A stretch of 64,000 nucleotides of DNA from Terriglobia bacterium. GTDB lineage: Bacteria > Acidobacteriota > Terriglobia > Terriglobales > Acidobacteriaceae. Below are positions 15,061-16,487 of this stretch, in pieces; positions within the stretch are counted from its first letter, which is position 1; each line of letters begins with the position of its first letter. The stretch is taken from contig JAIQGE010000008.1 of assembly GCA_020072815.1 (NCBI GenBank), positions 62,001-126,000 on the forward strand, in the 5' to 3' direction. Position numbers and translations under genes: made by a program. The notes beneath the pieces are model-generated. The model worked only from the letters and a program-made list of their open reading frames with translations. It had not been told where the DNA came from and searched no databases.

Positions 15061-15126
15061 GTTGTAGGCGCCTTGATCCCTGCTACATTCCAGCATTTTG
15101 CGGACTACGATTCTCGGGTCCGAAAG

Positions 15127-15150
15127 GGATCCCTCGCTTACGCTCGGGAT
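15127..15150. repeat. GGGATCCCTCGC-type palindromic repeat, copy 1
   Basis: GGGATCCCTCGC followed, after a few bases, by GCTCGGGAT; an almost identical copy is at 16463-16487, so the pair brackets the selD gene. It lies in the 93-base gap between the convergent LURP-one-like gene and selD, and ends just before the selD stop. Confidence 0.6.
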
Positions 15151-15153
15151 GTT

Positions 15154-16203
15154 TCAAACAACCCGAATCAGCGGCTTGCCCTGCGGCAACACTTCGCCAA
15201 TTTCAACTGCTGTAACGCCTGCACCTTGCAACGCGCTGATCAATGCTGCTGCGTCGTCGCCGGCGACTGATATCAGCAACCCTCCAGCGGTCTGCGGATC
15301 AAACAAAATCGTGCGCAATTCGTCCGGGACGCTACCGTCGTATCCCACCAGGCACTCGGCGAAATCGCGATTGTTGTTCAGACCTCCGGGAATGTGTCCG
15401 GCGCGAACGCAATCCAGCGCGCCCGCGAGCAGCGGGACTTTTACAGAAGAAATACGCAGGCTCACGCCGCTGCCGTCGGCCATTTCGCGCGCGTGGCCGA
15501 TTAGGCCAAAGCCGGTGATGTCGGTGGCGGCATGGACGCGCAGATTGCTTTGGACGGCCACGTCCGCGGCCTTGGCGTTGAGTGTGGTCATGGACTTGGT
15601 GGCGGTGTCAATCCATTCCTGCCTGGCTTCGCCCTTCTTGATGGCCGTGGAGATCACGCCGGTGCCGAGGGCCTTGGTGAGGATCAGGCGGTCGCCGGGC
15701 TGGGCGCCGGAGTTGGTCCACACACGGTCCGGGTGGATGGTCCCGGTCACGGCGTAACCGAATTTGATCTCGGGATCGCGGACGCTGTGCCCGCCAATCA
15801 CCACGCAGCCGGCTTCCATCATCTTGGACAGCCCGCCGGCCAGGATTTGCCCCAGGACTTCCAGGTCGCCTTTGTCAGGAAAACAAACGATGGCCAGCGC
15901 GCTCAGCGGACGCCCGCCCATGGCGTAAACGTCACTCAAGGCGTTGGTGGCGGCAATCTGGCCGAAGGTGTACGGGTCGTCCACGATGGGTGTGAAGAAG
16001 TCCACGGTCTGCACCAGCGCCTGCTGGGCGGAAATTTTGTACACTCCGGCGTCGTCGGCTTTGTCAAAGCCAACCAGCACGTTCGGATCATTTTGCCGGG
16101 CTAATTTCCCAAGCACCGCGTCCAGCGCCGCCGGACTCAGCTTGCTTGCTCAACCCGCGGCTTTCACCTGCTCGGTAAGCCGGATGGACTTCACTTCAGA
16201 CAT
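15154..16203 (-). CDS. selD: Selenide, water dikinase (selenophosphate synthetase), selenocysteine-containing
   Basis: Makes selenophosphate from selenide and ATP for selenocysteine and selenouridine synthesis. Reading through an in-frame TGA (complement of 16150-16152) joins the open frame to an upstream ATG at 16203. The N-terminus becomes MSEVKSIRLTEQVKAAG-Sec-ASKLSP, exactly where SelD has its catalytic Cys/Sec. The product is 349 residues with Sec18, close to the usual length. Later motifs are typical: VQTVDFFTPIVDDPYTFGQI, NALSDVYAMGG, GGHSV, FDPQTAGG. Without read-through, a GTG at 16116 would give a product lacking the active-site loop. A hairpin suited to a bSECIS follows the TGA. 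Confidence 0.95.
16120..16136 (-). promoter_or_regulatory. Candidate bSECIS hairpin for selD Sec18
   Basis: On the selD message a 7-base-pair stem (GTCCGGC with GCTGGAC, one G-U pair) encloses a GGC loop. The stem starts 13 bases after the UGA and the loop is about 21 bases downstream, within the distance SelB-dependent bacterial elements use. The loop holds guanines, as expected. Folding was judged by eye. Confidence 0.6.
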
Positions 16204-16312
16204 ATGGACATTCTACCTGTTGATTGCTCGGTGATTTACCGCAACGGACGCTTCTTCATGAAACCCCGAGCGGAGCGAGGGGGCCCTATGAGGACGAGGA
16301 ATTGAGGGTTTT

Positions 16313-16335: not shown

Positions 16336-16462
16336 TACGCTGCGAGCATCGCAGGTGTGGCGAACGTAGTATGGGCAAATCAGCCGTGAATGCACGCAAA
16401 TCTTATGCTCGTAGTTCGCGTTCATCCGCGAGATCCGCGCCTCGATGTTCATTGCGATGATA

Positions 16463-16487
16463 GGGATCCCTCGCTGGCGCTCGGGAT
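16463..16487. repeat. GGGATCCCTCGC-type palindromic repeat, copy 2
   Basis: GGGATCCCTCGC, then GCTCGGGAT; matches 15127-15150 apart from the centre. A related but longer-loop version lies within the element at 38436-38651, near 38578. Confidence 0.6.

Follow-up and report, generated by a model that had tools for sequence, protein, structure and literature searches.

The selD gene and its in-frame TGA

The window, by which we mean the whole stretch of DNA that was analysed (64 kb of a soil acidobacterium's genome assembly, which spans 5.29 Mb in 32 contigs and has a completeness rating of 100%), carries on its minus strand a selD reading frame that runs from an ATG at 16203 to a stop ending at 15154 and whose sole internal stop is a TGA. 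With that TGA read as selenocysteine (Sec), the product has 349 residues. The gene and the features around its TGA are as follows:

15154..16203, minus strand: selD coding sequence, 349 residues with Sec18, terminal stop TGA at 15156-15154 (TIGR00476, NF002098, AIRS N- and C-domains)
16150..16152, minus strand: in-frame TGA as Sec18, at the catalytic position (alignment with C17 of 3u0o; the codon is TGA in 35 of the 41 close acidobacterial SelD genes compared)
16120..16136, minus strand: upper hairpin of a bacterial SECIS, 7 bp, loop GGC, 20 nt from UGA to loop (fold and comparison)
16093..16158, minus strand: extended nucleotide-constrained element, codons -2 to +19 (third-position identity)
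16150..16156, minus strand: predicted 5′ arm of a lower stem, GGGTTGA, which would hold the UGA (fold and pair counts)
16098..16104, minus strand: predicted 3′ arm of the lower stem, TTAGCCC, which holds a rare TTA Leu codon

The product passes the curated SelD model TIGR00476 with 388.7 bits (cut-off 125) and scores 339.9 bits with NF002098 (cut-off 299), and the AIR-synthase-like N and C domains (PF00586 and PF02769) are both present. We aligned it with the solved SelD structures 3u0o and 2yye, which we take to be the E. coli and Aquifex proteins, and residue 18, in the motif KAAG-U-ASKL, falls opposite Cys17 of 3u0o, presumably the catalytic residue of the E. coli enzyme, and opposite a Cys of 2yye as well. 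At the protein level, the stretch that precedes the TGA is conserved among SelD relatives. Under translation table 11 the ORF starts at a GTG at 16116 and encodes 320 amino acids, so that the TGA-bearing catalytic segment, which lies upstream of this apparent start, is lost; the gene model is corrected here to restore it.

An earlier note on this DNA had described an unbroken minus-strand frame up to the ATG at 16203 except for one TGA (the complement of 16150-16152), with the GTG at 16116 as the apparent ORF start and the TGA at the Cys/Sec position of SelD within AAG-U-ASKL. All of these coordinates agree with ours, the GTG is the start of the table-11 ORF of 320 amino acids, and the alignment places the TGA on C17 of E. 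coli SelD and not away from it, which confirms the observation of a selD gene with an in-frame TGA at the Sec/Cys site. As a separate observation, a short repeat, AGCGAGGGATCCCT, lies on both sides of selD, at 15125-15138 (minus), 16274-16287 (plus) and 16462-16475 (minus); it has 4 matches in the window at up to 2 mismatches against 0.41 expected, and 0 of 100 shuffles had 4.

Selenocysteine machinery and other TGA-bearing genes

Profile searches of the same assembly found selA at 551 bits (cut-off 268), selB at 389 bits (cut-off 242) and a tRNA-Sec at 73.9 bits (gathering threshold 47), to which ARAGORN assigns the anticodon UCA. All three genes that the earlier note had expected elsewhere in the genome (selA, selB and selC) are therefore present. 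As controls we used 14 well-known genomes, of which 1 exceeded the curated cut-off with the selA model, 2 with the selB model and 5 with the tRNA-Sec model. Because 5 of the 14 pass, a match to the tRNA-Sec model alone is unspecific, and the call therefore also draws on its score and on the ARAGORN result. Another match to this model (47.8 bits) was rejected, being a tRNA-Ser according to ARAGORN and a better fit to Rfam's general tRNA family. Selenouridine synthase gave zero matches in the genome; Sec is independent of that enzyme.

Further TGA-containing genes, for which the earlier note had suggested looking, are present: with the formate dehydrogenase (FDH) alpha model we found two FDH-like alpha genes whose Sec site is encoded by an in-frame TGA, one at C1:60371-62275 (602.8 bits, NRT-U-HAPS) and one at C5:177236-178012 (170.4 bits, ARV-U-HGPT). 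Both scores are below the TIGR01591 cut-off of 666.25, so the two genes owe the FDH name to their Pfam molybdopterin domains and to the U-H motif, which we take to mark the Sec site of formate dehydrogenase alpha. A hairpin is predicted after each of the two TGAs, with a G within the first two loop positions as judged by eye. SelD and the two FDH proteins make up a minimum list of at least three selenoproteins.

In the C1 locus the alpha subunit is split, with its Fe4S4 domain (PF04879) apart from the molybdopterin domains (PF00384 and PF01568). This Sec-bearing locus (L139:4372-9140, or G000:C1 about 60371-65140) is permuted, the Sec catalytic part being followed by a NuoE/NuoF-like fusion and then by a ferredoxin-rich protein with a terminal Fe4S4 domain. 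Three other loci (L144, L145 and L146) repeat the catalytic part with its TGA and a separate later protein that ends in an Fe4S4 domain, and the middle gene was seen, by motif, only in L144 among the three. The second Sec FDH-like gene (L140:2099-5362, on G000:C5) encodes 1088 residues with what looks by eye like a Tat leader, and ORFs that we named by eye as cytochrome-b-like and FdhE-like come after it. Another FDH-model match, at G210:C10:5090-6055, has one internal TAA and may be a pseudogene or an assembly error.

Sec and Cys forms of SelD among relatives

We next consider the SelD codon in 41 close acidobacterial genes, which is TGA in 35 and Cys (TGC or TGT) in 6. The set comprises the window's own gene (L001), one from the same family (L042) and 39 loci (L051-L088 and L090), Acidobacteriota by title, that were drawn from the best 80 of 561 relatives. 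The remaining 41 of those 80 were excluded as belonging to other phyla or being more distant, as having no N-terminus (L114 and L124) or as having no motif; the motif is present in 9 of these excluded loci, each time with TGA, and the SelD tree includes 6 of the 9. Over 130 loci the motif was found in 63 (51 TGA and 12 Cys), and the 67 loci without it include L002-L021, which were fetched as weaker selD-model, selB, selA or tRNA matches. Across the phylum SelD is found at E <= 1e-30 in 197 of 297 genomes, and by hand count 111 of the 150 SelD matches listed (matches, not genomes) have one internal TGA, its location unchecked, and 39 have none. The available part of PMC4561486 gives Sec in 19% of the SelD genes of a prokaryote reference set.

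SelD occurs in 7 genomes of the window's own family, including its own, and is absent from at least 20. In each of the 6 other SelD-positive genomes of the family, selA is accompanied by a match to the FDH model that contains a single internal TGA (location unchecked), and neither selA nor a TGA-bearing FDH-model match was found in any of the 5 SelD-negative genomes tested (of at least 20). At E <= 1e-60, selB was not found in 6 of 33 TGA-SelD genomes; because all 6 have a selA match, which is above the cut-off in 5, missing contigs are a likely explanation.

The SelD tree, which was built without the residues that overlap the SECIS and has a midpoint root, with 18 of its 44 inner branches drawn open, requires three Sec/Cys changes: in L083, in L081+L082, and in L067, L068+L071. 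Sec genes surround the Cys genes in this tree, so that, under the midpoint root, a change from Sec to Cys would be the simpler direction. All six Cys-SelD genomes have selA and selB, and in five of them (G313, G314, G327, G328 and G329) the FDH model gives a match that contains a single internal TGA; in the sixth, G317, no FDH match was found. The available part of PMC1794560 describes both the change from Sec to Cys in SelD and SECIS-like remnants that follow Cys codons.

A hairpin conserved with the TGA

The hairpin in the window, GTCCGGC-GGC-GCTGGAC, starts 13 bases past the TGA and has 7 bp, one of which is G-U. For segments of 53, 45, 71 and 29 nt the fold z-scores are -2.24, -2.32, -1.84 and -1.54, and 5, 4, 11 and 12 of 200 shuffles, respectively, fold equally well. 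Taken alone, folding energy is only modest evidence for the hairpin.

The comparative evidence puts the predicted hairpin beyond chance. The outer six pairs are intact in all 35 TGA genes, and the seventh as well in 33 of these; of the 6 Cys genes, only L083 has the outer six. Paired cells amount to 98.9%, whereas controls with the partner slid by 1-3 columns give 18.3-48.0%, and two-sided change is seen in 12 cells, where shuffling gives a mean of 3.6. When pairs rather than cells are counted, 2 have two-sided change, which is not above the controls (shuffled mean 1.8; slides of -2 or -3 also give 2), and the hairpin columns are also constrained by the protein. In the TGA genes pair 19-25 is G-C in 28 and A-U in 7, and a synonymous change of the leucine codon from CTG to TTG tracks the change of its partner from G to A. 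This leucine switch follows lineage, however, and is seen in the Cys genes too, with G-C in 5 and A-U in 1; because the Cys genes pair here as well, shared descent accounts for part of this pattern. The claim of the earlier note that a 7-bp hairpin with a G-containing loop follows 13 bases after the TGA holds in coordinates and fold, and the hairpin is conserved in relatives.

We judged the geometry against the limits for the bacterial SECIS (bSECIS) restated in the available part of PMC13188914. The loop GGC has 3 nt with G first and fits; the stem of 7 bp compares with a range of 4-16, the spacing of 20 nt with a range of 16-37, and the energy is below the limit of -7.5 kcal/mol. The window hairpin has both the bSECIS geometry and the conservation, and the element exceeds the consensus in having predicted middle and UGA-containing lower stems and a strongly conserved sequence. 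Among the Cys genes, L083 (codon TGC) still has a hairpin that is a remnant of its former SECIS, and its genome, G329, has both selA and selB as well as an FDH match that bears a TGA.

An extended constrained element with a predicted lower stem

Constraint at the nucleotide level reaches about 60 nt beyond the TGA. In 28 of the TGA genes the mean third-position identity over codons -2 to +19 is 0.95, against 0.64 over the 93 codons outside, and over all 35 TGA genes it is 0.86 inside against 0.62 outside. The lowest values inside the element, for the 28 genes, are at codon 1 (0.57) and codon 11 (0.79), and 6 of the 93 outside codons likewise reach 0.9. The 28 genes were picked for the block TTAGCCCGG, and the invariance of codons 16-18 among them is thus built in; codons -2 to 15, which are independent of this selection, have a mean of 0.94.

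TTA serves as the Leu codon 46-48 nt past the TGA in 28 of the 35 TGA genes, whereas only 1 of the 262 other Leu codons in the selD fragments is TTA. In 5 of 5 folded genes from the 28-gene set, TTAGCCC is predicted to fold against GGGTTGA with the UGA paired. The lower stem is missing in the other 7 TGA genes, 3 of which were folded and fold otherwise, and the 71-nt segment that contains it in the window has an unremarkable energy (z -1.84, with 11 of 200 shuffles as good). Because the stem is nearly invariant and there is hardly any variation within the 28 genes, covariation cannot prove it. A UGA-bearing lower helix is known from the SECIS of E. coli fdhF. The bacterial mechanism described in the available part of PMC13188914 names a lower helical region.

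Alternative readings of the TGA and of the extended structure

If the TGA were a true stop, the protein would start from the GTG at 16116 and would be a SelD without its catalytic segment, by way of a pseudogene, a point mutation or a sequencing error, and table 11 does yield the 320-residue ORF from there. We consider this extremely improbable, as 35 of the 41 close acidobacterial SelD genes compared have a TGA at the identical codon and, with location unchecked, one internal TGA is found in 111 of 150 SelD matches listed, the protein is conserved upstream of the TGA, and selA, selB and selC are present in the genome. A general decoding of TGA as some other residue (e.g., Trp in code 4) would also explain why an in-frame TGA is tolerated, but the terminal stop of selD is itself a TGA, a tRNA-Sec with UCA exists, and the three in-frame TGAs examined sit where SelD and FDH have their Sec/Cys residue (for FDH, the site that we take the U-H motif to mark), and we give it almost no credence.

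The extended structure raises a separate question, in that it might mainly be a regulatory switch, with low selenium leading to termination at the UGA and loss of the product and with the conserved lower stem tuning the response. The third-position conservation past the 7-bp hairpin, the near confinement of TTA to one codon and the predicted pairing of the UGA in all 5 genes that were folded from the 28-gene set are consistent with such a role. However, there is little variation in the lower stem among the 28 genes and it is absent from the other 7 TGA genes, the 3 folded among these all fold otherwise, the 71-nt fold is unremarkable, and no extra role is required because the described bacterial mechanism already names a lower helical region (PMC13188914, available part); a mainly regulatory role is unlikely. 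Similarly doubtful is the wider proposal that a SECIS domain of about 65 nt hides the UGA in its lower stem, with a strict TTA, as a selenium-responsive switch on selenophosphate supply, and that three lineages went from Sec to Cys in SelD while Sec decoding was kept.

SelD as a selenoprotein

The selD gene is almost certainly functional, with a product that is a selenoprotein carrying Sec at residue 18, and the earlier note's assignment of Sec18 is supported by the aligned TGA, by selA, selB and tRNA-Sec and by the conserved hairpin. SelB carrying Sec-tRNA-Sec would bind the hairpin just 3′ of the UGA, and selenocysteine would thereby enter selenophosphate synthetase at residue 18. SelD would convert selenide and ATP to selenophosphate, which SelA would use for making Sec-tRNA-Sec. 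The users of this Sec-tRNA-Sec would be SelD and at least two formate dehydrogenases with Sec.

We see no essential difference between the window gene and the Sec-SelD (selenide, water dikinase) of TIGR00476, as it belongs to the same family, has Sec at the single known position, and carries a hairpin of bSECIS geometry right after the UGA, alongside selA, selB and selC; the constrained RNA exceeds the minimal model in 28 of the 35 TGA genes. A selD gene with Sec is an ordinary, well-known kind of selenoprotein gene that simple gene finders clip. According to the available part of PMC1794560, no bacterial selenoproteins are more widespread than SelD and FdhA, both of which undergo Sec-to-Cys change, and because this is already known, nothing long open is settled here. 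Among the literature matches listed on selenocysteine or selenoproteins in Acidobacteria or Terriglobia, none concerns the SelD of this lineage, and we do not claim that its selenoproteins are unpublished. The genome shows that this acidobacterial lineage has the genes needed for decoding selenocysteine, and its relatives amount to a natural experiment in which the hairpin is kept with the TGA and lost in 5 of 6 Cys genes.
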